A stretch of 64,000 nucleotides of DNA, taken from contig SYJG01000319.1 of the NCBI GenBank assembly GCA_005798445.1, forward strand, positions 1-64,000, given 5' to 3'. Both the position numbers and the translations under genes were made by a program. The stretch's first letter is position 1. Each line of letters starts with the position of its first letter. This DNA comes from Planctomyces sp. Lineage in GTDB: Bacteria; Planctomycetota; Planctomycetia; Planctomycetales; Planctomycetaceae. This document shows, one piece after another, positions 5,876 through 64,000 of this stretch. Below the pieces are notes generated by a model. That model was not told the DNA's origin. It did no database searches and saw only the letters and a list, made by a program, of their open reading frames with translations.

Positions 5876-8140
5876 TCAGTGATTGAACAGGAACTCATTC
5901 GTCGCCAGCAGCGACCACAGCAGCGAGCGGCAGGCTTCCGCTCGATCAGGTTCAGCGGCAAGGAAATCGACAGCAGCCTTCAGCTCTTCCGGTCGTGGTC
6001 GTCGGGCCATCGCTCGGAGAAACACTTCGCTCGCGAGTTCGGCGTGTGACTTGTCGCTGGCGGCGAGTCGCTCCGCGTAGCCGGTCTTCTCAGTCAGCTT
6101 GCGTTGGATCTCCGCCGAGTTCACCAGTTCCAGCGCCTGCGTCAGCGCCGGGGAATCGACTCGTTCGCATTCGCAGGCCGACATCCGCGCCGGTCGGCCG
6201 AAGACATCCAGAAAATGTGCGGCCACGTTTTCGTCGGGCAGTTCGATCGCGCGAGTGCCAGCGGCGACGCCTGGAAAGTTCGTCGGCACATCCAGGACTT
6301 GGCTGATGCCGTCGAGCAGCACCTCGGCCGTCACTCGCCGAGGATAGAACCGAGCGAACGTCTGTGTGTCGCCAGCATTACCCGGATGAGGAGTCGATTC
6401 CAAACCGTAGGCGTAGCTGCTGGTGATGACCCGGATGAGATGCTTCACGTCGAAGCCGCTGGCGATGAAGTCTTGAGCCAGCGCGTCGAGTAGTTCGGAG
6501 TTGCTCGGCGGATTCGTGCTGCGAGCGTCATCGATCGGGTGGACGATGCCGCGGCCGAGGAAGTGAGCCCACATCCGATTGGCCATCGTGCGGGCGAAAA
6601 ACGGATTGTCGGCACTGGTCATCCACCGTGCGAGACTGTTGCGCGGATCATCGTGCAGGCCGAGCGAGAACTCCTTCCCGCCGAGCGGTCTTGGCCTCAG
6701 GATTTCGCCGGTGCGCGGATGCAACACGTCGCCGCGTTCCTTGAGGAAAATGATCTCGTCGGTCGGGACTTCGGCATCCGCGAAACCTCCCTTGCGGCCG
6801 ACGCGAGAGAAGACTGCGGCCAAGCCGAAATAGTCCGATTGGCTCCATCGTTCCGTCGGGTGATGATGACACTGAGCACACTGCACACGGACTCCGAGAA
6901 ACGCCTGGGAGACGGACTCGACGTATTCCGGCGACTTCCGCACGGTGCGATACCAGATTGCCGGCGGGTTCTCGTTCTGGCTGCCGCTGGCGGTGATCAA
7001 CTCAGACACAAACTGGTTGTACGGCTTGTTCGCCGCCAGCGAGTCACGAATCCACGCGGCGAAGAGCGTCGTCCCCGCGCGCTGCTTGCTGGTCGAATAG
7101 CCGGCCCCGCGATTCTGCAAGATGTCGGCCCACTTGAGCGCGAAATAGCTGGCGTACTCCGGTCTCTCCAACAGACGGTCGATCAACCGCGAGCGTTTAT
7201 CGAGGCGAGTGTCGGCGAGATACTCGGCAACTTCCTCGTTTGTCGGCAGCGAACCGCAAATGTCGATCGTCACGCGGCGAAGGAACGTCGCATCATCGGC
7301 CGGCGCGGACGGGACGACTCCCAGCCGCCGCCACTGCCGCTGCAAGTGGCGGTCGAATGAAGCCGCTCCGAGTTTCGGTTCCAACAGATCAAGCTGTTGC
7401 TGAGCGGCCGCCATCTTCACCGGATCGCTGGCGAACGGGACCGCCGCATGAAACGTGGCGATCTGCTCGCCGAACCGAGCCATCACTGACACGAGTCCGT
7501 GTTGCGAACTGGTCTTCACCAACCCGTCTGCCTCGACGGACGCGATGTTCGGCTCGTTGGATTGGTACACGGCCTGCCGAGTCACTTCGCGCGACGTCCC
7601 ATCGGAAAAGAACGCCACGACGCGCAGTGGCTGAGACGAGTTGGTCGCGAGGACTTGCTCGCGAGGCGAAAGCTCAATGCGCACCAGTTTCGGATCGTCT
7701 TCTCGCGGTGCTGTCGCTCCTTGAGCGATCCAGTTGCGCAGAATCCGGTAGTCGTCACTGGACTCGTCCAGCCGCCGACCGCCGCCATGTGGCACACGGG
7801 ACGTCGCCTTGAGCAACAGCAAGCTGCGATCCGGGTCAGCGAGAGACAGCCGACGTCCTCGAGCGTCGGTGACGAGCGCGTCGTAATCCACCTCCGGCTC
7901 GAACCCGAACAGCGAGAGCTTGAAACCGTTCTGTCCGGTCGCCTTGCCGTGACAGCCGCCACTGTCGCATCCAAGCTTGGTCAGGATCGGCACGACGTCG
8001 GTTCCGAAACGAACAACGGATCCAGTTGGCTCTGCTGCGACGACTTCGCCCGACAACATCACGAAGGCACCAAGGGAAACCACGGCCCATTTGGTCGCTC
8101 TTTGTGCCTTCGTGTCTTTGTGTGAGATTTGTTCGATCAC
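5876..8140 (-). CDS. DUF1549/DUF1553 (PSD1-type) protein with cytochrome-like CxxCH-type motif
   Basis: LGCDSGGCHGKATGQNGFKLSLFGFEP, VQCAQCHHHPTERWSQSDYFGLAAVF, NPFFARTMANRMWAHFLGRGIVHP. The N-terminus is encoded by a palindromic repeat (see findings). Confidence 0.9.
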   Translation of the reverse strand: MIEQISHKDTKAQRATKWAVVSLGAFVMLSGEVVAAEPTGSVVRFGTDVVPILTKLGCDSGGCHGKATGQNGFKLSLFGFEPEVDYDALVTDARGRRLSLADPDRSLLLLKATSRVPHGGGRRLDESSDDYRILRNWIAQGATAPREDDPKLVRIELSPREQVLATNSSQPLRVVAFFSDGTSREVTRQAVYQSNEPNIASVEADGLVKTSSQHGLVSVMARFGEQIATFHAAVPFASDPVKMAAAQQQLDLLEPKLGAASFDRHLQRQWRRLGVVPSAPADDATFLRRVTIDICGSLPTNEEVAEYLADTRLDKRSRLIDRLLERPEYASYFALKWADILQNRGAGYSTSKQRAGTTLFAAWIRDSLAANKPYNQFVSELITASGSQNENPPAIWYRTVRKSPEYVESVSQAFLGVRVQCAQCHHHPTERWSQSDYFGLAAVFSRVGRKGGFADAEVPTDEIIFLKERGDVLHPRTGEILRPRPLGGKEFSLGLHDDPRNSLARWMTSADNPFFARTMANRMWAHFLGRGIVHPIDDARSTNPPSNSELLDALAQDFIASGFDVKHLIRVITSSYAYGLESTPHPGNAGDTQTFARFYPRRVTAEVLLDGISQVLDVPTNFPGVAAGTRAIELPDENVAAHFLDVFGRPARMSACECERVDSPALTQALELVNSAEIQRKLTEKTGYAERLAASDKSHAELASEVFLRAMARRPRPEELKAAVDFLAAEPDRAEACRSLLWSLLATNEFLFNH

Positions 8141-10671
8141 TCCAAAATCTCCAACGGAAAAAAACTGCTGCCGAAATAGGTTGGTTCATCTTCGACGACA
8201 CCGACCGTGAACAGTCGCAGGAATTGCTGTCGGCCCAGTGGGGCGTCGTCGTTGATGACAATTTGCAGAGTTCCCTTGTCCGTCTGACCGGTGAATGTTT
8301 CGCCTCGTCCACGCAGGCCAACGACGTCCGTCACGCGACCGGGAGCGGCCAGTTCCGTGTGCATCTTGCCAATGAATCCGTTGAGTCGCTTCGCCGAGTA
8401 GCTCAGTTTGATCGTGTCGCCTCGTTTGGCTTGCGTCACCGCGAACGGATCGACTTCCACAAGGATCGCTGTGGGTTGCACGTCGAACGTGACGGGGTTG
8501 CTGACGACCGCGACCGTCTCCGTTTTCTTGTCGGGAGTGGGGACCGTGGTCTCGGCACGGACAACCAGCGAGTAACGTCCGACAGGCATCGTCGGCGGCA
8601 GGTGGAAACTGAGATATCCCTTTTGCTGTCCGGCCGGGATGACGGTCGTTTGATTGTGGATCGAATCCGGAAGCCCCGCGCCAATCATTTTGACTGGAGC
8701 CTGATGACCGGTGTCGCGCCGCTCGATGTGGATGGCAACGTCGAGCACTCCGCCCGGCGAGTGCTTCGGAGAAAGCTTGCCGTAGAGATGATGGTCCAGC
8801 GTCTCGTGCGCATCGGCCGTGATTCGCAACGGCGCTTCGCCGGCGACCGCGATCGGGATTTGCGAAGTGATGCGCCCCCATCCGTTCGGCGTTCCGGATC
8901 GGACGATCGTGCCGCCGCGCACCGGGTGACTCTTCCGTGCAGACTCTTCCGTGACGCCTTCCAGTTTCAATTCGCCGAAGAGAGCCGACGCATTTCGATC
9001 GGCCGAAACAACCAATGTCGTCCCATCCACACCGGGGCCGAACCAGACGTCGGAGCATTCGATTCCCGCTGGGAGATCCTTGGCGGAAACGTGAATCGCT
9101 CCTTCGCAGCCTCGCTGCCGAAACACGAACAGATCGAGCACCTCGCGTCCGCCGCGCCGCACGTTCAAGCCGGCGAAGTCGTCGCGACGCGGAACGGCCA
9201 CGAGTTGAAAATCGGGTTCCTCACGACGAATGCTCAGCCGATAGGTCCGGCGCGGATCGGCTTGCAGTCCGCCAATCAGATTTCGGATCGCCACCAAGTA
9301 GCGGCCATCCGCCGGACAGACCCACCGACCTGCCGGATCGAGATGAGACGTCGGGAATCCACCACCGATGTTTCGTAATTCATCGCCGAACTGCGCCAGT
9401 TCCTGCTGACCCGATGGGTCAAGCACGCTGATCTGCAAATCGACCGGAGCTTGCAGCCGTTGTCCGATCGCCTCGATGAAAAACACTTCGCCGCGCCGAG
9501 CGGGAATCGCAAACCAATCTCGTTCGTCACCGGCTACCAGTTGTCCGCTCACTTCGCACGGAACGATGACCTCCTGCGCTGACGACGGCGAGTGATTGCC
9601 GTCTTGGTTCATCGTCACCGGCACGTCGGTCAAACCGATGACCACTGGCGCGTGACTGCCGGGAATCTGGTAGGCGAATCCTTCGAGCATCGCTTGCGAC
9701 GGCTGCAATCTCACGGGCAATGGCCAGGACGGTTCAGCGAGCGACGCGGGGATGTCCGCATCCAGGCGATCGAACAAATCATCCGGCGAGCGGGGCGGCG
9801 TCAGCCCCCCGGTGGTTGCGAGGGCCGTTGACGACCGGGGGGCTGACGCCGTCCCGCTCGCCTGGGCCAAGTTCCAGCCGTACAGCGAGACGCGCGACGC
9901 CTTGCCACGTTCGATGACGCTGGGTACAGAGAACGCGACGCGCGGGCCGGTGTCGATGTCGAGCCGATAGTAGTGCTCAGCGCTTCCCGACGAAGTCAGA
10001 TCCTGAACCTTCACGATGTAGAAGCCGTCGGCTGGAACACGAAAGTCGATCAGTGGGTCGATGCCGAAGTAACCGCGATTCACCGCGAGTCGTTTTCCCG
10101 TCGCGTCGAAGATCTCCAGTACCGCACGCAATCGGGAGTCGATCCGCTCTGCCAAGCATTCGACGATGACACGCTGTCCCTGTTTCGCTTCGAAGCGGAA
10201 GTGATCCGAGTCGCCGGCTTTGTCGAGTCGCCCGTTGATCACGACATCCAGCGGGACCAACATCGCCGCTGACACCGTTTCGTTTGGCTCGGTCTCCAAT
10301 TGCTCCCTTCGATTGCCAATTGCAAACGTCCTCGGCGAACTGACGCCGTTGTCGCCGACGGCCCACAAGTCGCACAGTCCCGGCGGTGTGTCTGCCGGAA
10401 TCGTCAGTCGCATGCGGCTGGGATCCAATCTCTCACAGCGGACGCCGGGGACATTGCAATGCAGAGTCCGCAGTCCTTGCAGGTTCGTGCCGCTGACCGT
10501 CACTTCCACCGACTGCCCAACCTGCCCGCCTGTGGGGAAGACCGTGTTCAGCACCGGGGGCACCTGTCCGAAAGCCGAGCGCCCAGCGAACGTCGCCAAG
10601 CACACGGCGACGGGCAGCAGCACTTCGCGGTATCGGCTGCGAACAATCATCAACAACTCCCAGAGCGACAT
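8137..10671 (-). CDS. Secreted PPC (pre-peptidase C-terminal) domain-rich protein
   Basis: PPVLNTVFPTGGQVGQSVEVTVSGTNLQG, DSDHFRFEAKQGQRVIVECLAERIDSRLRAVLEIFDATGK. ATGA overlap with the PSD1 start. Exact start uncertain (ORF to 10812). Confidence 0.75.
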   Translation of the reverse strand: MSLWELLMIVRSRYREVLLPVAVCLATFAGRSAFGQVPPVLNTVFPTGGQVGQSVEVTVSGTNLQGLRTLHCNVPGVRCERLDPSRMRLTIPADTPPGLCDLWAVGDNGVSSPRTFAIGNRREQLETEPNETVSAAMLVPLDVVINGRLDKAGDSDHFRFEAKQGQRVIVECLAERIDSRLRAVLEIFDATGKRLAVNRGYFGIDPLIDFRVPADGFYIVKVQDLTSSGSAEHYYRLDIDTGPRVAFSVPSVIERGKASRVSLYGWNLAQASGTASAPRSSTALATTGGLTPPRSPDDLFDRLDADIPASLAEPSWPLPVRLQPSQAMLEGFAYQIPGSHAPVVIGLTDVPVTMNQDGNHSPSSAQEVIVPCEVSGQLVAGDERDWFAIPARRGEVFFIEAIGQRLQAPVDLQISVLDPSGQQELAQFGDELRNIGGGFPTSHLDPAGRWVCPADGRYLVAIRNLIGGLQADPRRTYRLSIRREEPDFQLVAVPRRDDFAGLNVRRGGREVLDLFVFRQRGCEGAIHVSAKDLPAGIECSDVWFGPGVDGTTLVVSADRNASALFGELKLEGVTEESARKSHPVRGGTIVRSGTPNGWGRITSQIPIAVAGEAPLRITADAHETLDHHLYGKLSPKHSPGGVLDVAIHIERRDTGHQAPVKMIGAGLPDSIHNQTTVIPAGQQKGYLSFHLPPTMPVGRYSLVVRAETTVPTPDKKTETVAVVSNPVTFDVQPTAILVEVDPFAVTQAKRGDTIKLSYSAKRLNGFIGKMHTELAAPGRVTDVVGLRGRGETFTGQTDKGTLQIVINDDAPLGRQQFLRLFTVGVVEDEPTYFGSSFFPLEILE
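9785..9862. repeat. Palindromic element, family A, inside the PPC protein CDS
   Basis: GGCGAGCGGGGCGGCGTCAGCCCCCCGGT (9785-9813) vs reverse complement 9834-9862, 1 mismatch. Confidence 0.93.
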
Positions 10672-54776: not shown

Positions 54777-55637
54777 TCAGACGAAGAAGTCCGGCAAAAG
54801 CTCCTCAGTCGGATCGACTGCGTAGCTCGATAGGTCGCTGATGCCCGAATCGCGCAGGACGTCCTCGTCGAGAAAGAACCGTCCCGTACATTCGCGGCTG
54901 GGCCGAGTGAGGATTGTATGGGCGGCATCGGCGACGATTTCTGGATTGCGGCAGCGGCGTATCGAATTATCGCCTCCAAGTAAGTTGCGAACCGCGGTCG
55001 TCGCGATGGCAGTGCGTGGCCATAACGCATTGACGGCGATTCCGTATGACCGAAATTCCTCGGCCATACCGAGCACACACAAGCTCATTCCGAACTTGGA
55101 CAAACTGTAGGCCAAGTGCGGGGCGAACCAGCGGGCCTCAAAATTGAGCGGCGGCGCGAGGTTGAGGATGTGTGCATTCGCCGCTCGCTTCAAATGCGGC
55201 AAGCAGGCCTGTGATGCCAGAAACGTGCCACGCACGTTGACCGCATGAATGAGATCAAATCGTTTGGCCGGAGTGTCAAGCGTTGCTGCCAGAAAAAGTG
55301 CGCTGGCGTTGTTGACCAGAATATCAATGCCGCCAAATGTCTCGACGGTTTGTTGCACAGCGGCCTGAATTTGATCTTCAAATCGAACATCGCAAAGACA
55401 TGCCAGTCCGTGTCCGCCTGCCGCGTTGACTCGTTCGACGGCCGAGTGGATCGTTCCGGGTAACCGGGGATCTGGCTCGTTCGACTTCGCCGCCACGGCG
55501 ATGTTCGCGCCGTCGCGGGCGGCTCGGAGGGCGATCGCCAAGCCAATGCCGCGACTTGCGCCCGTGATGAACAGCGTCTTGCCGGCCAAGCTGGACACCG
55601 ACCTGTTCTTTCTTTGCAAAGGGAATTGCCAGGCCAA
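54777..55637 (-). CDS. SDR family oxidoreductase (HSDL2-like)
   Basis: LAGKTLFITGASRGIGLAIALRAARDGANIAVAAKSNEPDPRLPGTIHSA; NNAS; YSLSKFGMS. Confidence 0.92.
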   Translation of the reverse strand: MAWQFPLQRKNRSVSSLAGKTLFITGASRGIGLAIALRAARDGANIAVAAKSNEPDPRLPGTIHSAVERVNAAGGHGLACLCDVRFEDQIQAAVQQTVETFGGIDILVNNASALFLAATLDTPAKRFDLIHAVNVRGTFLASQACLPHLKRAANAHILNLAPPLNFEARWFAPHLAYSLSKFGMSLCVLGMAEEFRSYGIAVNALWPRTAIATTAVRNLLGGDNSIRRCRNPEIVADAAHTILTRPSRECTGRFFLDEDVLRDSGISDLSSYAVDPTEELLPDFFV

Positions 55638-55645
55638 TCGAGCAA

Positions 55646-57238
55646 CTAGTCGTCGGATTTGAGCGCTTGTTTTTTGTTGTCGAGTTGGTACAGCGGCAAG
55701 TATCGGTAATACACCTCAAGTGTCAGTGCGTGAATGCTCGTCGACATGACGGGGCCTGCGGAGTGCCCAATTGCAGCCCAGCTTCCCTCGGCGCAACCCT
55801 CTTTGATTTGGGTCGAGAGGAGATGTCGGCGAGCGTTTCGATTCCAGGTGTCCCATTCGGGACCCGGAAGATTGTGCATCACCTGTGTGGCGTAATACAG
55901 AAAATACGAGTCGCCTTTCGCGCCGGCGAGATTGGCCATCACATAGTTCATTCCTTCGACCATGGCAGGCTCGGTGCGCTTCATGCCAGCGTACTGATTA
56001 CAGAGGAGTCCCACTGCGGACATCGCCGGTGAAGGGCCTGACTCCGGCATGTATGAGAACAGTCCGCCAGATTTCCCCTTGGCGACACTGGCTAAGAATT
56101 TCTTCGACTTGACGAGCGTTTGTGGGTTCACCGGCAGGCCGGCCATTTGAGCACTTTTCAAGCCCATCAACTGCCAGCCGACCACTGAGGTATCGCCAAC
56201 AGTGGGTGGATTTGCCGTGTAATGCCAACCACCCGATGAGTCATTTTGTGCGTCCTCAATGAACCGCACGGCCGCCTGAGCCACGTTCTTGAGTTTTTGA
56301 TCTTTGCTGAGGCCGTATGCTTCGCAAATCGCGATGGTCGCCAAGCCATGCTCATACATGCTGCCGCTGCCCAATTGACCGGTTTTTTCTTGATGTGTCG
56401 CCATCCAAAGCAATCCTTTGCGAATGACCGCTTGGTAGGGACCTTTGGATTCGTGAGTTTGACCAGCGGCGAAGAACGGGAGCAATCCGAACGCCGTGGC
56501 GGCCATCGGGTAGTCAGCGCCGGCCCTATGAGCATGTGCCGAGCAACTCGGATCTTTGCACTGCTTGGTGAACTCGATACAGCCCCAGCCTCCGTCGGCT
56601 GCTTGATGCCGAGCCAACCAATTGGTTGCCGCACCGACGGCTCGTTCCGAATCTGCCGTGCCACCGCCACTCGCCAGCATCGCTTGTCGAGATCCTGAAC
56701 CACGGCCACCGAAGCCCTCACCCGCACCGCCACTGCCACCCTTGTCACTGTTGCCGACTCCTGCCCCAACACCGCCGGGGCCACGCACGGCTGGTCCAGG
56801 GCCAAACGCCGAGACGTCAAAACCACCCAAGCCTCCGAAGGAAGGACCAGACGCCGCTGTGCCGCCACCCGCTTCCTCAAAGACTGCCGAGTTGTCATTG
56901 AACTGCGCATCTTGCTCGATGGTGGCGGCGGGTGGTTCGGTCAGCGATTCGGTGTTAAGGACAGTTGGCTCGATCGGCGTTTCGCCAACATCGAAATGTG
57001 TGATCGGCGTTTCTTCGACGGCTTCTTCCACTTCGGTGTCAAAGAAGACCACTTCCTGCAACAGTTTCTTCGCTTGTGGAGCGCCAATCGCGACCCCCAA
57101 GACCACAAAAACCACCAAGTGCGTGCCGACGCTCACGCCCCAGAATTTGCCGTTCTCTTTGAACCATCTCGTGACGTTGGCCTTCAAGTCTTGAGGGGTT
57201 GGAATGGAGTCCTTCAGCAATTTCACAAAATCATTCAT
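55646..57238 (-). CDS. TM-anchored protein with prenyltransferase/squalene-cyclase-like toroid domain
   Basis: TM HLVVFVVLGVAIG, Pro/Glu then Gly-rich linker, C-terminal repeats ATNWLARHQAADGGWGC, GLATIAICEAYGLSKD, AVRFIEDAQNDSSGGWHY. Confidence 0.8.
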   Translation of the reverse strand: MNDFVKLLKDSIPTPQDLKANVTRWFKENGKFWGVSVGTHLVVFVVLGVAIGAPQAKKLLQEVVFFDTEVEEAVEETPITHFDVGETPIEPTVLNTESLTEPPAATIEQDAQFNDNSAVFEEAGGGTAASGPSFGGLGGFDVSAFGPGPAVRGPGGVGAGVGNSDKGGSGGAGEGFGGRGSGSRQAMLASGGGTADSERAVGAATNWLARHQAADGGWGCIEFTKQCKDPSCSAHAHRAGADYPMAATAFGLLPFFAAGQTHESKGPYQAVIRKGLLWMATHQEKTGQLGSGSMYEHGLATIAICEAYGLSKDQKLKNVAQAAVRFIEDAQNDSSGGWHYTANPPTVGDTSVVGWQLMGLKSAQMAGLPVNPQTLVKSKKFLASVAKGKSGGLFSYMPESGPSPAMSAVGLLCNQYAGMKRTEPAMVEGMNYVMANLAGAKGDSYFLYYATQVMHNLPGPEWDTWNRNARRHLLSTQIKEGCAEGSWAAIGHSAGPVMSTSIHALTLEVYYRYLPLYQLDNKKQALKSDD

Positions 57239-57357
57239 CGTACACCTCTTCGACGGAAATCCCGTTGTCGCTGGGGATGACTCCGAACCAACCTCATCAA
57301 TCATGCCGGCTGATGGAAACTAGGCATTCACTCCGGCCGGGCCGCAACATAGTACGT

Positions 57358-58413
57358 TCAACCACCGTCCGGGGCATCCCCGGACTGCGGATTTCTCGGA
57401 TCCTTGGGAAGTGAGACCGGCCGCAATTCCGTGTCGGCGTCGTCTGAGCCTTCCCATTCGGCAAAGATTCCGTCGGATTGCGGGTCTTCGGGTGCTCCTG
57501 CTTCCAGCCAGCGTTCGATGGCGGCGTGATCTGGCGGGGCCGTCGCGTCCAGGCTTTGGTTGCCAGAAGGTCGAGTCCGTTTCCAGGCGACGCCGAACAC
57601 GACGACTGCTCCGGCCACGATGAGCCACTGCCAAACATACCCGTCATTTCGTTGCCGGCGCAACGCCGATCTCGTCAAGTTTTCTCGCCAGTGCAACCGG
57701 CCGATGAGCAGCGGAGCCCAGCGCTTCTTGCCCATCGCATCTTCGTAGGTGAATTGCTTCAAGAAGTAGCCGACGAACGTGGCCTCCTCGTGGATGCTCG
57801 GCTGGATCGCCAGTTCATGGGGCTTGTCGTAGAAGACCAAGCAATACAGCCCGGAACGGGACTCGTTGGTGACACCCCAAGCCTCATAAACTTGCTTGGC
57901 ACCCGCCGAGTTTTCTTCGGCTTCGTGAGCGAGTGCTCGCCGCAGGCTGACTCTCAGGCCGATCAACTCACCCCGGTATTTTTCAGGGGCGTCGGCCAGA
58001 TGTGTGAAGTAAAGATCTTTGCGAGACCGTTCCCACAAATCGTCAAACGACTCGGTCATGCTCCAACGCATGAGCTTCCAATAGGCCGGCATCTCTTCTC
58101 GAGCGAGCGGTTCTTTGTCGGTGACGGCCTGGAAGAGGTAATCGGCCTGAGAGTGCTCGAGTGGCTGCTGATCGTTCGGGCCGCTGACGAGCGTTTCAGC
58201 CTTCTTCTTTTCCGCCGGTGCCGAGTCCCCGTTGGGCTTCTCGGTTGTTGCAGCTTCTTCCTGGACATCGTCGGCGATCCACTTCCACATTGCCGGATCG
58301 CGCGTCCAATAGATGAGCATCGTGACGACGCCCAATAACATCACCGTTCTCACCAGCCGTGACATTTCTCGGCGAGGAAATGAATTCGAGGATCGTGAAG
58401 AACGAGTCAACAT
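57358..58413 (-). CDS. Membrane-associated hypothetical protein
   Basis: MSRLVRTVMLLGVVTMLIYW TM and a second TM WLIVAGAVVVFGVAW; sits inside the ExbBD cluster. Confidence 0.75.
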   Translation of the reverse strand: MLTRSSRSSNSFPRREMSRLVRTVMLLGVVTMLIYWTRDPAMWKWIADDVQEEAATTEKPNGDSAPAEKKKAETLVSGPNDQQPLEHSQADYLFQAVTDKEPLAREEMPAYWKLMRWSMTESFDDLWERSRKDLYFTHLADAPEKYRGELIGLRVSLRRALAHEAEENSAGAKQVYEAWGVTNESRSGLYCLVFYDKPHELAIQPSIHEEATFVGYFLKQFTYEDAMGKKRWAPLLIGRLHWRENLTRSALRRQRNDGYVWQWLIVAGAVVVFGVAWKRTRPSGNQSLDATAPPDHAAIERWLEAGAPEDPQSDGIFAEWEGSDDADTELRPVSLPKDPRNPQSGDAPDGG

Positions 58414-58418
58414 GATGG

Positions 58419-58931
58419 CTACGGCTGCGCGTCCGCGGGAAGCTCGACGAAACTGAGTTTGGTGAGCTTTTCGCCGTTGGGCAATGTCTGTTTCGTGCAG
58501 ACATCGACGATCTGCATCAGTTCTGAGTAGCGCAGTTTGGAACCGACTTGAACAATGACCTGATCGAAGGGACTGTTCGCATCGCTGAGCACGGCCTTCA
58601 AGCGGCCATCCAGAGCGGAGACGCCCGCGACATTTCCTTCGCCGATGGCAAGAGTTTGAATTCGGCCGCCGGGAGTCGAAAAGGCCGAGATCACGAGCGT
58701 ATTAATGGCCTCGACCGCGCTGCGATTGTTGTCATCGTTGCCAGCCTTTTCACCACCCTGCACACCCGCGATCGGCTTCGGTGGGGGCAGTTTCAGATTG
58801 ATCTGTCCTTCGATCGGAGCCGGCTTGAACGTCATGATGAAGAACGCCAGCAGTTGGAACGCCATATCCAGCATCGCCGCCAGATTGAGTTCGACGCCAC
58901 CTTCACTGTGTTTCTTTTTTCGACGACTCAC
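58419..58931 (-). CDS. ExbD/TolR family biopolymer transport protein
   Basis: VELNLAAMLDMAFQLLAFFIMTFKP. Confidence 0.88.
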   Translation of the reverse strand: MSRRKKKHSEGGVELNLAAMLDMAFQLLAFFIMTFKPAPIEGQINLKLPPPKPIAGVQGGEKAGNDDNNRSAVEAINTLVISAFSTPGGRIQTLAIGEGNVAGVSALDGRLKAVLSDANSPFDQVIVQVGSKLRYSELMQIVDVCTKQTLPNGEKLTKLSFVELPADAQP

Positions 58932-58963
58932 AGCGCACCTGCCTATTGTTCTGCTTACTCGGA

Positions 58964-59416
58964 TTACTCAGTGGACCTGTCGGTCGCCTTCAGAGCGAAC
59001 TTTCGAAAGCCGCTGTCCTGACAAGTCTTGATGACGAGATTCAGCAAACCAAACGGTGTGTCTTTATCGGCCCGCACCACGACCGTCGTGGGAAGGTCGT
59101 CCGTGTCCTTGAAGTTTCCGGTCTTTCGCTTGGCCTCAAGTCGTGCCATTTTGGCCTCGGCTTTGAGGTAGGGGACAATGTCTTGCGGCAGCGAATAGAC
59201 CATCAACTGTCCCTCTTTGTTCACGTTGAGGACCAACAAACTTTCCTCACCCTGGGTTTCGACCGGGCGTGCTGAGCCAACCACTGGCAGCCGCAGCGAC
59301 AAATCCAGCGAGGCCGCCTTGAAGCTGGTCACCAGCATGAAAAACGTGATCAACTGAAACACCATGTCGAGCATGGGTGTCAGATCACATTCGCCTTCAT
59401 TTTTTGAGCCAGACAT
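58964..59416 (-). CDS. ExbD/TolR family biopolymer transport protein
   Basis: CDLTPMLDMVFQLITFFMLVTSFKAA; VVRADKDTPFGLLNLVIKTCQDSGF. Confidence 0.93.
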   Translation of the reverse strand: MSGSKNEGECDLTPMLDMVFQLITFFMLVTSFKAASLDLSLRLPVVGSARPVETQGEESLLVLNVNKEGQLMVYSLPQDIVPYLKAEAKMARLEAKRKTGNFKDTDDLPTTVVVRADKDTPFGLLNLVIKTCQDSGFRKFALKATDRSTE

Positions 59417-59456
59417 GGATGCTCAGGCTTAAGAGGTCAGAGGTCAGAGGTCAGAC

Positions 59457-60368
59457 TTACGCAGGCTTGGGAGCCGGTGCCGCTGCCGCTGCCGGAGCGG
59501 GTGCAGCCGCTGGAGCTTTCGCCGCGGCCTTGGCGGCACTCGCCAGTTTTCGGACGAATTCATCCGCGGCAAACATGGTCGTCGCGCTGATGGACGCAAC
59601 ACGGTTCTTGAAGACGGCAAAGAAGAATATCGCCGGGACCGAGAGGGCGACTCCCATGAAGGTGACGACGAGAGCTTCGGAAATCGCCTCGGCAACTTCG
59701 TTGGCCTTGATGCCCGCATCGGATCGGGCGATGACCATGAAGCTGGCGATCATCCCTTTCAGGGTGCCGAGCAAACCGATCATCGGCCCCAGAGATCCGA
59801 GTACAGCCAACATGCTAATCTTCTTCTCCAGCTCGACGACTTGCACCTCAGCCGTTCGCTCCATGGCATCGCGAGCTTCCGCCAACCCCGCCGACAATTC
59901 ACCCAGACCCGACGAGGCATATCGGCTGAACAGGCAATCGGTTTCTTTGATTCCCTGGTAAACCCCCTTGTAGTCCCGCTTTTCCATCTTTTGTTTGAGG
60001 TCTTCCATCAATTCCGGAGGCATCGCCACGATGGGGCGGATATCGATGAACAACCGGCTGACCAATTGGATGAAGTAACACGACAGTCCGATGATGAAGA
60101 TGCCGATGGCCCCCGAAATTCGGAGAACCCAAATGACGACATTCTCTTGGGAATGGCCTTCGCCCTCCGGCACCTTCGCGTCTTTCTTCGCTTTCTGAGG
60201 AGCGGGCTTTGCCTCAGGCTCTTCATCCATAGCGGCTGGTTCCTCCTGAGGATCCTGAGCCACGACCGTCGGCGTCGTCAACCACGGCATCTCGACCGAG
60301 CCAGCCACGAGAGCCAACATCAACACCATCCAAGCCAGCCGCTTCGAGCGGTCAGGTGAGCCAATCAT
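59457..60368 (-). CDS. MotA/TolQ/ExbB proton channel family protein
   Basis: ISMLAVLGSLGPMIGLLGTLKGMIASFMVIARSDAGIKANEVAEAISEALVVTFMGVALSVPAIFFFAVFKNRV; Ala/Pro-rich tail. Confidence 0.95.
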   Translation of the reverse strand: MIGSPDRSKRLAWMVLMLALVAGSVEMPWLTTPTVVAQDPQEEPAAMDEEPEAKPAPQKAKKDAKVPEGEGHSQENVVIWVLRISGAIGIFIIGLSCYFIQLVSRLFIDIRPIVAMPPELMEDLKQKMEKRDYKGVYQGIKETDCLFSRYASSGLGELSAGLAEARDAMERTAEVQVVELEKKISMLAVLGSLGPMIGLLGTLKGMIASFMVIARSDAGIKANEVAEAISEALVVTFMGVALSVPAIFFFAVFKNRVASISATTMFAADEFVRKLASAAKAAAKAPAAAPAPAAAAAPAPKPA

Positions 60369-60750
60369 TACGCAGACCTCGTTGAAAAATCGTCAAACAG
60401 AAAACTGAGAAGTCACGGTCACGACATCCCTTGCGACCGCCGCCGAAGCAAGAAGGACTTGCAAACCCGTCGTCACCGCGAAATGTTCGCCACGATTTGG
60501 CAAGAGCGATTTGCCGCTTCGCAGGCCGCGAGGACACACGGTTCCAATCGGGGACCGCCTGTCACACCGACCGGAAAGAGGGGGACATGCTACAGAGGCC
60601 CTTGGCCGCAAGAAAGTCTGCGGACAGATGCCAAGAGACGGCCACGGTCTGGAGGATCGTCGAGGTTGTCTTTGGAGGGAAAGACTGATTCAGTACCCTG
60701 GAGCGTCCTTCCGACGCCCGCTTGCAGCAACTCCCAAAACCGGACAAGCA

Positions 60751-63700
60751 ATGATGACTTGGTGGACTCGACTGACTGAGATTGCGGCCCTGTTGACGAT
60801 TGGCTTTGTGGCAACCGTGCCAGCGGACGACGTCGTGGTCCGCACGCCTCCCGCCGAGCTAAAGGTCGATCCGTTTCACAAGAAGTACGTCAGCGCCGAC
60901 GGCTATCCGATCGTCGCGTCAGGAACGGTCAACGACTACGCCCTCAAAGAGGCGGCGTACCTCGTCAACTTGATGTTGGCGAAGCGGCCCGACGTGCGCG
61001 AGGCGATGATTAAGTCCGGCTCGCGGCTGTGCATCCTCGCGCACAACGAGTTCACAACCGATGTGCCGGAGTTCGCGTGGCTGAAGCCGAAGGACTTCTG
61101 GGACGCGCGTGCTCGCGGGACAGGCGGGTCGCAGACCGATCCGTATTGCTCGTGCGGCGAGGAGAATTTGTTGTGCTATCCCGGCGACCCGTACTCGACC
61201 GAGAACATTTTGATTCACGAGTTCGCGCACAACATCCATCTGCGCGGCATGGTCAACGTCGATCCGACGTTCGATCGCCGGCTGAAAGAGACCTACGACC
61301 GAGCGATGACCGCCGGACTCTGGAAAGGCAAATACGCGGCGACCAATCATCACGAGTACTTCGCCGAAGGAGTGCAGTCCTGGTTCGACAACAACCGCGA
61401 GAACGACCACGACCACAACCACGTCAATACGCGAGACGAGCTGCTCGAATACGACCCCGGACTGGCCGCGATGTGCCGCGAAGTCTTCGGCGAAACGAAG
61501 CTCGTCTACACGAAGCCGACGACGCGGCTGAAGGATCACCTCGCGGGCTACGACCCGACGACCGCTCCGAAGTTCGTCTGGCCGGAACGTCTCAACGAGT
61601 CTCGCAAGCAGATTCGCGAGAAAGCGGTGAATCGCTCAAAGCCAGCGACAGGTGAGCCGGGGAGCGTCAGCCCCCGGACGGAATCGCGACCGGCTCCGGG
61701 GGCTGACGCACCCCGGCTCGCCAAAGACAAAGAGGACAACCAAAAACCAAACCCGCTGCTGACCATCGATCACTTGTTCGACTCAAAGGACTTCGACGAA
61801 GAGGGGCTCGGTGCGGTGGTTTGGAAGAAAAAGGGGGCGGGATATTTCCAGTTGGACAAGCCGAAGAACAGCGAGTCGGGTCGCGAACTGGTGTGGCATG
61901 ACTCGGCTACGGACGAGACGAAAGTGGTCGTCACTGTTGAGATGCTGACTCCAGCCAACGCTCCGAAGGATGACAAAGGGAATCGAAAGGCACTCAACGT
62001 CGAGTCGTATCAGTTTTCCGACGACGAGTCGAAGTTGCTGATCTTCACGAACAGCAAGCGTGTCTGGCGACGCAACACGCGCGGCGATTATTGGGTGCTC
62101 GACCTCGCGAAGAGCGAGCTCAAACAGCTCAGCGGCGACGATCGCGAAAAGTCCTCGATGATGATGTTCGCGAAGTTCTCGCCCGACGGCTCGCGCGTCG
62201 CGTTTGTGCGCGAGAACAATCTCTTCGTCCAGAATCTCGCCGATATGAGCATCGTGCCGCTGACAAAGGACGGCTCGGCAACGCTCATCAACGGGACGTC
62301 CGACTGGGTCTACGAAGAGGAACTCGAACTGCGCGACGGCTATCGCTGGTCGCCGGACGGCAAGTCGATCGCCTTCTGGCAACTCGACTCGTCCGGCGTG
62401 CGCGAGTTCTTTCTCATCAACAACACGGACGACTCGTACTCGAAACCGATCGGCATTCGGTATCCGAAGGTCGGCGAGCAGAACTCTTCGGCGCGGATCG
62501 GTGTCGTCAGTGCCGCCGGCGTCGAGCCAAAGTGGCTCGACGTCCCCGGCGATCCGCGCAACCACTACCTCGCCCAGATGGAGTGGACGCCGGACGGCAA
62601 GCAGATCGCGCTGCAACAGTTCAATCGTTTGCAGAACACGAATCGAGTGATGCTCGCCGATCCGACCAGCGGAGCGACACGCACGATCCTGACCGAGACC
62701 GATCCCGCTTGGCTCGAAAACGAAAACCCGTTTCGTTGGGTGAAGCAGGGCGAGCAGTTCGTCTGGATCAGCGAGCGAGACGGCTGGCGACGGCCGTATC
62801 TGGCGAGCATTACGCCCAGGCGAGCGGGGGACGTCAGTCCCCCGGTGGGCTCAACTGCAACAGATGACACAACCAAAACTGGACCCACCAGGGGGCTGAC
62901 GCCCCCCGCTCGCCGGATTTGTTCTGCCGACCAATACGATATGATCGGCTTCGACGCCATCGACGAGACGGCGAGCGAGATCTACTTCTCCGCATCGCCC
63001 AACAACGCGACGCAGCGATACCTCTACCGAGCGGCGCTCGACGCCGAGAAGGCCGAGCGAGTGACCCCCGCCGATCAGTCGGGCTGGCACACTTACAATA
63101 TCTCGCCGGACGCGAAGTTCGCGATCCACACGTTCTCGTCGTTCATGCACCGGCCGGTCGTGAAGCTCATTTCGTTGCCGGATCACAAGACGGTGCGAGT
63201 GCTCGCGGCCAATGCGAAGCTCTGTGTGAAGCTGAACGAACTCCAGAAGCCGACCGCCGAGTTCCTGCGGCTAGACATCGGCAACGGCGTTGAGCTGGAT
63301 GCGTGGTGCTTGAAGCCTCCCGGCTTCGACGAGAAGGGGGAGAAAAAATATCCGCTGCTGATCCACGTCTACGGCGAAGCTCACGGACAGACGGTTCGCG
63401 ATGCCTGGGTCGGCAAGCGCGGGATGTGGCATTGGTTGTTGGCTCAGCAAGGCTACGTCGTGGCGAGCGTGGACAATCGCGGCACGATGTCCCCGCGCGG
63501 CCGCGAGTTCCGCAAGATCATCTACCGACAGATCGGCATCCTGCATCCGACCGAACAAGCCGCCGCCGCGCGCGAGCTGCTCAAACGAATGCCGCAACTC
63601 GATCCCGCCCGCATCGGCATCTGGGGCTGGAGCGGCGGCGGCTCATCAACGCTCAACGCGATGTTCCAGTTCCCCGACCTGTACCGCACCGGCATCTCCG

Positions 63701-64000
63701 TCGCCCCGGTCCCGAACCAAAAGCTGTACGACACGATCTACCAAGAGCGCTACATGGGCCTGCCGACCGACAACGCCGACGGCTACACGCGCGGCTCACC
63801 GATCACGCACGCGAAGAATCTCAAAGGCAACCTGCTACTCATCCACGGCACCGGCGACGACAACTGCCACTACCAAGGTGTCGAGCTGCTCATGAACGAA
63901 CTGATCGCCCACAACAAACCGTTCTCGCTGATGGCCTACCCCAACCGCAGCCACGCGATCTCCGAAGGAACGAACACCACGCGACACCTCTACCAAACCA
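60751..64000 (+). CDS. Putative zinc metallopeptidase domain fused to S9 (DPP-IV-like) prolyl oligopeptidase; runs off the window end
   Basis: Open from ATG 60751 to 64000 (no stop, so absent from the ORF track). N-terminal NILIHEFAHNIHLRG and HHEYFAEGVQSWF. C-terminal GIWGWSGGGSSTLNAMF, LLIHGTGDDNCHYQ, NRSHAISE. Confidence 0.88.
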   Translation, partial: MMTWWTRLTEIAALLTIGFVATVPADDVVVRTPPAELKVDPFHKKYVSADGYPIVASGTVNDYALKEAAYLVNLMLAKRPDVREAMIKSGSRLCILAHNEFTTDVPEFAWLKPKDFWDARARGTGGSQTDPYCSCGEENLLCYPGDPYSTENILIHEFAHNIHLRGMVNVDPTFDRRLKETYDRAMTAGLWKGKYAATNHHEYFAEGVQSWFDNNRENDHDHNHVNTRDELLEYDPGLAAMCREVFGETKLVYTKPTTRLKDHLAGYDPTTAPKFVWPERLNESRKQIREKAVNRSKPATGEPGSVSPRTESRPAPGADAPRLAKDKEDNQKPNPLLTIDHLFDSKDFDEEGLGAVVWKKKGAGYFQLDKPKNSESGRELVWHDSATDETKVVVTVEMLTPANAPKDDKGNRKALNVESYQFSDDESKLLIFTNSKRVWRRNTRGDYWVLDLAKSELKQLSGDDREKSSMMMFAKFSPDGSRVAFVRENNLFVQNLADMSIVPLTKDGSATLINGTSDWVYEEELELRDGYRWSPDGKSIAFWQLDSSGVREFFLINNTDDSYSKPIGIRYPKVGEQNSSARIGVVSAAGVEPKWLDVPGDPRNHYLAQMEWTPDGKQIALQQFNRLQNTNRVMLADPTSGATRTILTETDPAWLENENPFRWVKQGEQFVWISERDGWRRPYLASITPRRAGDVSPPVGSTATDDTTKTGPTRGLTPPARRICSADQYDMIGFDAIDETASEIYFSASPNNATQRYLYRAALDAEKAERVTPADQSGWHTYNISPDAKFAIHTFSSFMHRPVVKLISLPDHKTVRVLAANAKLCVKLNELQKPTAEFLRLDIGNGVELDAWCLKPPGFDEKGEKKYPLLIHVYGEAHGQTVRDAWVGKRGMWHWLLAQQGYVVASVDNRGTMSPRGREFRKIIYRQIGILHPTEQAAAARELLKRMPQLDPARIGIWGWSGGGSSTLNAMFQFPDLYRTGISVAPVPNQKLYDTIYQERYMGLPTDNADGYTRGSPITHAKNLKGNLLLIHGTGDDNCHYQGVELLMNELIAHNKPFSLMAYPNRSHAISEGTNTTRHLYQT
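61651..61722. repeat. Palindromic element, family A, inside the S9 fusion CDS (domain junction)
   Basis: GGTGAGCCGGGGAGCGTCAGCCCCCGGA (61651-61678) vs 61695-61722, 2 mismatches. Confidence 0.92.
62819..62914. repeat. Palindromic element, family A, inside the S9 fusion CDS (propeller region)
   Basis: GGCGAGCGGGGGACGTCAGTCCCCCGGTGGGC (62819-62850) vs 62883-62914, 3-4 mismatches. Confidence 0.92.

Follow-up and report, generated by a model that had tools for sequence, protein, structure and literature searches.

The window, a 64,000-nucleotide stretch of a Planctomyces sp. contig (SYJG01000319.1), carries on its minus strand, read from 60368 to 55646, five genes encoding ExbB, ExbD, a second ExbD, a two-TM protein and a TM-anchored alpha/alpha-toroid protein. 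Pfam matches and TM counts agree with this order and common strand, as given in a preliminary description made from the sequence alone. The ExbB/TolQ-like proton-channel subunit (59457..60368, 303 aa; Pfam MotA_ExbB, 3.7e-24) is followed by the TolR-like subunit ExbD1 (58964..59416, 150 aa; Pfam ExbD, 8.5e-21) and a divergent TolR-like paralogue, ExbD2 (58419..58931, 170 aa, GTG start; Pfam ExbD, 1.8e-10). Next come the two-TM protein (57358..58413, 351 aa) and a toroid-tipped putative force transducer (55646..57238, 530 aa), which combines an N-in TM helix of the pattern S-x3-H-x6-L with an acidic, Gly-rich linker and an alpha/alpha toroid. The mechanical ORF of the toroid gene begins at 57304; the start at 57238 given earlier is favoured by homologues and by an AGAGG-type ribosome site. 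Intergenic gaps in the cluster are operon-like (5 to 119 nt). With 11 MotA_ExbB loci across the 8 Mb of the genome, and with other lineages showing the same order of five genes, the grouping from ExbB to the toroid gene is more than chance.

The catalytic residues of the motor subunits encoded near the toroid gene are intact (Asp17, Thr202/Thr236). ExbB T202, T236 and P245 align with TolQ T145, T178 and P187, and the pore Thr pair is retained. The proton-binding Asp17 is invariant in ExbD1, and the same Asp is kept in ExbD2 in an AMLD context. The best score of ExbB is TolQ-like, although at 75.9 bits it lies under the 221-bit cut-off of TIGR02796; ExbD1 scores best as TolR-like. Five ExbB subunits probably surround an ExbD1-ExbD2 heterodimer, a stoichiometry reached by inference. 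TM1 of the window ExbB does not have the Trp of the S-x3-W relay. Ser96 in this helix is conserved among toroid-linked ExbBs, one lineage excepted; it corresponds to E. coli ExbB Ser34 by motif and position only, the profile alignment having stopped short of TM1.

The TM helix of the toroid protein, FWGVSVGTHLVVFVVLGVAIG (about aa 33-54; 57076..57141), carries the motif S-V-G-T-H with Leu at +11, an instance of the Ser-x3-His with which TonB and TolA bind ExbB/TolQ. In cryo-EM structures, TonB S16 and H20 touch ExbB S34 and W38, and W38 touches P190 (PMC12215075). Among phylum-wide non-redundant toroid proteins with a TM helix, [S/A/T]-x3-H was found in 73 of 90 (68 with Ser, 5 with Ala or Thr), and 46 of these 73 also have Leu at +11. 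At the family level, strict S-x3-H occurs in 39/54 non-redundant toroid proteins with a TM helix and A/T-x3-H in 4 more. The strict motif was found in none of 349 other one- or two-TM ORFs of the first locus set, the lone match among these control ORFs being a truncated toroid protein; A/T-x3-H was found in 4. The motif sits at the beginning of an N-in/C-out helix, and does so also in fusion proteins where two TMs come first; the last Ser of SHLS is not conserved (1/73 motif-bearing toroid proteins). These patterns argue, at the level of sequence, for compatibility of the toroid TM helix with ExbBD.

Three loci of the sister lineage, L044-L046, have the full operon and no Ser or His in the toroid helix, so that either the operon can do without the motif or another interface is used in that lineage. 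In the same loci the otherwise conserved Ser96 of ExbB TM1 is replaced by Met. The loss of Ser and His from the transducer and of Ser96 from ExbB counts as a single evolutionary event.

The preliminary description had a Pro/Glu/Gly-rich spacer after the helix. Its Gly-rich and acidic character is borne out, but Pro is not enriched: aa 59-190 contain 27 G, 14 E and 9 P in 132 aa, with a net charge of -16. An acidic juxtamembrane segment within it (about aa 65-108; 56914..57046), F-D-T-E ... HFDVGETPIEPTVLNTESLT, is kept in the nearest toroid clade and is a candidate ExbD contact. It is distinct from the D-box of TonB, a hydrophobic/polar pattern that follows the TM helix and binds ExbD (PMC10907165). 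The D-box pattern is absent from the window toroid protein and present in 12 of 73 relatives.

The toroid domain (aa 177-530; 55649..56710) has three conserved Q...GxW motifs and is predicted by AlphaFold2 with a mean pLDDT of 90.7 and a pTM of 0.90. Its Foldseek neighbours are squalene-hopene cyclase, GH76, epimerases and prenyltransferase beta, with TMq mostly about 0.5-0.6. Pfam SQHop_cyclase_C matches aa 194-290 only (4.4e-7), and the TIGR01787 score is 35.9 bits against a cut-off of 322.7. The cyclase DxDD motif is missing from 60/61 toroid domains, and a cyclase function was rejected on this ground. Where the D-x-C of the prenyltransferase Zn ligand would be expected, judged without residue-level structural superposition, the sequence reads D349-T-S351, with Ser in 60/61. 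D349 and S351, together with Y295, Y445, Y448 and Y449, make up the invariant polar and aromatic residues. Cys227/Cys232 were considered as a family-wide metal site and rejected, being present in only about half of the members.

The two-TM protein matched no Pfam family. AlphaFold2 gives pLDDT >90 over most of aa 80-240, with helices at about 14-38 and 246-279 and, between them, a predicted periplasmic OB-fold domain with five strands at 150-242; the best Foldseek matches are SSB/CST OB folds (E about 5e-4). A hint at an anti-sigma protein (NF052375, 21.6 bits against a cut-off of 100) was dismissed because it reflected a match to the TM region; the fold found was OB instead. The gene is kept beside ExbB-ExbD-ExbD in eight loci with no adjacent toroid gene.

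Of 292 sampled Planctomycetota genomes, 245 contain toroid relatives, usually as multiple copies. Gene order is conserved in part. The five-gene order occurs in several lineages (the window, L040/L056, L043-L046, L059 and L060), but these are all relatives; the four-gene core ExbB-ExbD-ExbD-2TM is spread more widely. An independent arrangement of ExbB, ExbD and a large toroid protein recurs across the phylum, in L062, L065, L077 and L099 and in the distant families of L165-L167 and L172. Most toroid paralogues lie away from ExbBD genes; TonB genes are often not beside ExbBD either (PMC12204202). In four genera a TPR gene adjoins the toroid gene, and in L062/L073 one stands upstream of ExbB; in this genome it is unlinked (C331), and the window cluster has none.

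We consider it likely that these genes specify an ExbBD/TolQR-type motor with a dedicated toroid-tipped force transducer. Proton-motive force would drive the ExbB-ExbD1-ExbD2 motor, and the N-terminal helix of the transducer would dock on ExbB TM1 via Ser-x3-His, as in TonB and TolA. The acidic flexible linker would span part of the periplasm. The toroid, with no cyclase role, would serve as the binding tip and contact a partner in the periplasm or outer membrane; the best candidate for this partner is the TPR protein whose gene adjoins the toroid gene in related genera. The two-TM protein with its periplasmic OB fold would be a motor accessory. We favour this transducer reading because of the intact motor, the helix motif, the joint change of Ser/His and Ser96, the gene linkage, the lack of TonB_C and Plug in the two genomes of this genus and the precedent of vWA transducers. 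Against it weigh the L044-L046 operons without Ser and His, the missing Trp in ExbB TM1, the absence of the last Ser of SHLS and of a D-box, the many toroid paralogues located away from ExbBD, and the eight four-gene cores that have no toroid gene beside them; the Ser96 change, moreover, is one event only. The motor residues, the motif and its conservation, the toroid fold, the linkage and the lack of TonB_C in the genome come from sequence or structure prediction, and from them we infer physical docking, force transfer, a partner and a cellular role. The earlier proposal of a Ton/Tol-like complex with the toroid as effector, argued from topology and gene order, is thus largely supported, best of all by the conserved S-x3-H motif, which it had not noted, and also by the intact ExbB and ExbD residues. 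The opposite case that it had named, a TM helix unsuited to ExbBD on a protein working as a soluble enzyme, is argued against by the motif and by the missing DxDD.

Another possibility, which we regard as unlikely, is that the toroid works in the periplasm as a membrane-anchored enzyme on terpenoids, glycans or proteins and that its link to motor genes is incidental. The nearest structural neighbours are indeed enzymes, the invariant polar and aromatic residues could suit such a role, most toroid paralogues are encoded on their own, and the S/H helix is missing from a few relatives. However, DxDD is missing almost throughout, ExbB-ExbD-toroid clusters recur in distant families, and S-x3-H would be superfluous in a plain signal anchor, yet the motif is kept in most of the toroid proteins surveyed while their linkers are not conserved. 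Less probable still is a regulator or sensor that sits on the TonB-type site of ExbBD and, on meeting a ligand in the periplasm, gates proton flow. This would predict the same helix motif and linkage, signalling towards the channel has been proposed for the S/H relay of TonB (PMC12215075), and a ring is plausible as a ligand-binding module; however, a helix, a long flexible linker and a globular tip fit force transmission better, and the window cluster encodes no other transducer. An ordinary Ton or Tol-Pal system with an unrecognised TonB or TolA C-terminal domain, to which the TolQ-like score of ExbB might point, is highly improbable, since an alpha/alpha toroid is confidently predicted for the C-terminal domain and neither TonB_C nor Plug was found in the two genomes of this genus (G000, 90% complete; G056, 99%), whereas they occur in 12 and 17 of 61 family genomes.

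Compared with TonB-ExbBD, the toroid system shares the ExbB/ExbD catalytic residues, a one-TM transducer with S-x3-H-x6-L, a disordered linker and a globular tip; it differs in having two different ExbDs, an ExbB TM1 without Trp and no TonB-dependent transporter found in this genome. Membership in the Ton system was rejected for want of TonB_C, Plug and a D-box. With Tol-Pal (TolQRA-TolB-Pal) it shares the TolQ-like ExbB and TolR-like ExbD1, and the PD40 propeller, the repeat type of TolB, is fused to toroid transducers in phylum relatives; in contrast, the toroid protein has no TolA C-terminal domain and the cluster no tolB or pal. The toroid fold and Q..GxW motifs recall squalene-hopene and oxidosqualene cyclases and prenyltransferase beta subunits, but here the toroid is single, short, membrane-anchored and motor-linked, without DxDD and with a TM-score of about 0.5-0.6. 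The closest known kind is the family of vWA force transducers described in 2025, which have an SHLS helix and are encoded beside TPR-tolQ-tolR-tolR in PVC bacteria (Williams-Jones et al. 2025, PMC12204202). Both have an SHLS-type N-terminal helix, a flexible linker and a non-TonB globular tip, and both go with a TolQ-like gene, two different TolR-like genes and, in relatives, a TPR gene. The toroid system differs in its tip, in the two-TM OB-fold protein of the operon and in the lack of a TPR gene in the window cluster. The toroid protein would be another variant of the TonB/TolA-type force transducer, new beside the vWA family; the main text of PMC12204202 mentions neither a toroid nor a prenyltransferase. 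We found no paper describing a planctomycete ExbB/ExbD system with a squalene cyclase or prenyltransferase repeat.

Textbooks describe Ton and Tol as the systems through which the inner membrane drives processes at the outer membrane. The toroid relatives across the phylum suggest a previously undescribed route for inner-membrane energy into the periplasm. If the transducer reading is true, the toroid would be the second non-TonB/TolA tip after vWA and likely a core part of planctomycete envelope biology. The uncoupler CCCP stops planctomycetes from taking dextran and whole macromolecules up into their periplasm, a process for which neither an energy-coupling protein nor a machine is known (PMC5394234). 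A phylum-wide, multi-copy family of toroid-tipped transducers that docks on ExbBD in the manner of TonB and does the envelope work of TonB/TolA, possibly including this CCCP-sensitive uptake, is a tentative extension and on present evidence rather doubtful. The toroid and ExbBDD genes are concrete candidates for genetics in Planctopirus limnophila, where the necessary tools are available. Downstream of the toroid gene lies an SDR-family oxidoreductase gene (54777..55637, minus strand; NF006133, 433.7 bits), which adjoins the toroid gene in close relatives only (L039-L047 and L056).

The preliminary description had placed an ExbB-ExbD-ExbD cluster with a toroid protein of TonB-like topology in this window, and both position and gene order agree with our analysis. 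On the minus strand, from 60368 to 55646, five genes encode ExbB (60368-59457; Pfam, 3.7e-24), ExbD1 (59416-58964; 8.5e-21), ExbD2 (58931-58419; 1.8e-10), a two-TM protein without a Pfam family (58413-57358) and a TM-anchored protein with a cyclase-like repeat end (57238-55646), here called the toroid protein, in which a weak SQHop_cyclase_C match (4.4e-7) covers residues 194-290. The source genome (7.96 Mb, ~90% complete) has 11 MotA_ExbB loci. Judged by sequence, the ExbB/ExbD motor is intact, since the proton-carrying Asp of ExbD/TolR is invariant in both ExbDs in alignments with relatives (D17 in ExbD1) and ExbB T202, T236 and P245 align with T145, T178 and P187 of TolQ in solved structures. 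We consider it rather probable that ExbB and the two ExbDs form a proton-motive-force motor, that the toroid protein docks on it, in the manner of TonB and TolA, by its Ser/His helix, and that force passes through this protein to a partner in the periplasm or outer membrane which the toroid holds. Residues, motif, fold and linkage are seen in the sequences and the predicted structure, whereas binding, force, partner and physiology are inferred.

The sole TM helix of the toroid protein is FWGVSVGTHLVVFVVLGVAIG. Cryo-EM of the E. coli complex places TonB Ser16 and His20 in contact with ExbB S34 and W38, the latter also touching P190 (PMC12215075; PMC12905483). Among 54 non-redundant TM-bearing toroid proteins of the same bacterial family, 39 carry a strict S-x3-H and four more A/T-x3-H. 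The 350 remaining ORFs of these loci with one or two TM helices include one with S-x3-H and four with A/T-x3-H; the lone S-x3-H control match (L048) is itself a truncated toroid protein. This enrichment (Fisher p ~1e-40) ignores kinship, related sequences not being independent and the control ORFs being mechanically called. The sequences come from MAGs, with searches conducted within Planctomycetota. Extension to other families of the phylum gave S-x3-H in 68/90 and A/T-x3-H in 5/90; Leu(+11) follows in 46 of these 73 motif-bearing proteins, and the final Ser of the SHLS-type motif is not conserved in this phylum-wide census. Long fusions (e.g. L062, L165) run TM, PD40 propeller, TM, motif helix, linker, toroid; there, as in proteins with two TMs (L050, L106), it is the last pre-toroid helix that carries the motif, in a TonB-compatible orientation. 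A few relatives lack the motif (e.g. L049, L064, L077, L086, L099, L161).

A sister lineage (L044-L046) keeps the whole operon, but both motif residues, Ser and His, are gone from the helix (IAFGSLISF). Exactly these three loci have Met in place of ExbB TM1 Ser96, a residue found in the remaining ExbBs whose operons have the toroid motif. This paired loss is suggestive rather than proof, because it represents a single evolutionary event. The Trp that follows the TM1 Ser in E. coli ExbB/TolQ is absent from the ExbBs here, so the E. coli-type relay is at best partly shared.

Of the systems described so far, the vWA force transducers of PVC bacteria come closest (Williams-Jones et al. 2025, PMC12204202): they combine an SHLS helix, a disordered linker and a foreign tip, and are accompanied by TolQ, a pair of unlike TolRs and a TPR gene. 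The main text of that paper does not mention a toroid; since the tips differ, the two are one kind of protein but separate families. Membership of TonB fails on C-terminal domain, receptor and D-box: the toroid protein has no TonB_C, neither TonB_C nor Plug was found in two genomes of the source genus (G000, G056), and the window protein lacks a strict D-box pattern. Since TonB_C and Plug occur in 12 and 17 of the 61 family genomes, the toroid system does more in this family than just take the place of Ton. Membership of the cyclases fails on the class II motif DxDD, missing in 60/61 toroid domains.

The toroid domain was predicted by AlphaFold2 with pLDDT 90.7 and pTM 0.90. Its Foldseek matches, with TMq mostly between 0.5 and 0.6, are alpha/alpha toroids and barrels of a generic sort (squalene-hopene cyclases, GH76, epimerases, prenyltransferase beta). 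Cyclases were also reached by a profile search (2e-24), which gave weak matches to pectate lyase and thioester domains as well. Conserved features are three Q..GxW motifs along with D349, S351 and a number of Tyr residues.

The five-gene order recurs in the same genus (L040/L056), related MAGs (L043-L046), L048, partial contigs (L039, L041, L042) and two further genera (L059, L060). ExbB-ExbD-ExbD-2TM is a wider unit that elsewhere has no adjoining toroid (L093, L139, L140, L142, L143, L148, L156, L157). Toroid proteins were found in 61/61 family and 245/292 phylum genomes, mostly in several copies, the majority not adjoining ExbBD. In another layout a large toroid protein comes after ExbB-ExbD; this is seen in the same family (L062, L065, L066, L073, L077, L099) and in distant ones (L165, L166, L167, L172).

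In L062 (7930-13145) and L165 (3149-8903), where Pfam confirms PD40 repeats, and in L166, L167 and L172, the large protein carries a PD40 propeller, TM helices and a long linker; its motif helix has S-x3-H, A-x3-H in L167 and no match in L172. Toroid transducers joined to a TolB-repeat-type propeller thus exist in several of the phylum's families. L060 (8526-11954) has one four-gene operon followed by two tandem toroid transducers. The source genome has a second such operon without a toroid gene (L093, contig C408, 3109-6016), with another 2TM paralogue lying divergent at 1966-2967 and a further ExbB/ExbD pair at 7272-8614, and a 2737-residue ORF (L055, 4089-12299) in which a divergent toroid domain follows several TM helices.

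A TPR-repeat protein is the first candidate partner of the toroid. Four genera (L057, L058, L059, L061) have a gene for a TPR protein adjoining that of the toroid protein, and in L062 and L073 one lies upstream of ExbB. The source genome has an unlinked homologue of the toroid-adjoining TPR protein on contig C331 (L192, 188-3004); it and another in the window genus (L197, 7665-10625) lie away from any toroid gene. In G056, two small exported-looking proteins come after the TPR homologue.

Between the two helices of the 2TM protein lies an OB fold, presumably periplasmic because the N-terminus and a stretch after the second helix are basic. The window encodes, at 57358-58413, this membrane-anchored OB fold whose closest solved structures are SSB-like, single-strand DNA-binding proteins. 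Its profile matched 79/392 phylum genomes, many without ExbBD alongside.

Beside the cluster lie two long inverted-repeat elements (61651-61722 and 62819-62914; arms 28-31 nt, 90-93% complementary) with the common core GGGGGCTGACGC. Both fall within a single long plus-strand open frame (60511-63999, running off the end of the window), so the palindromic element appears to be translated; the product resembles a metallopeptidase-type and DPP-IV-type protein.
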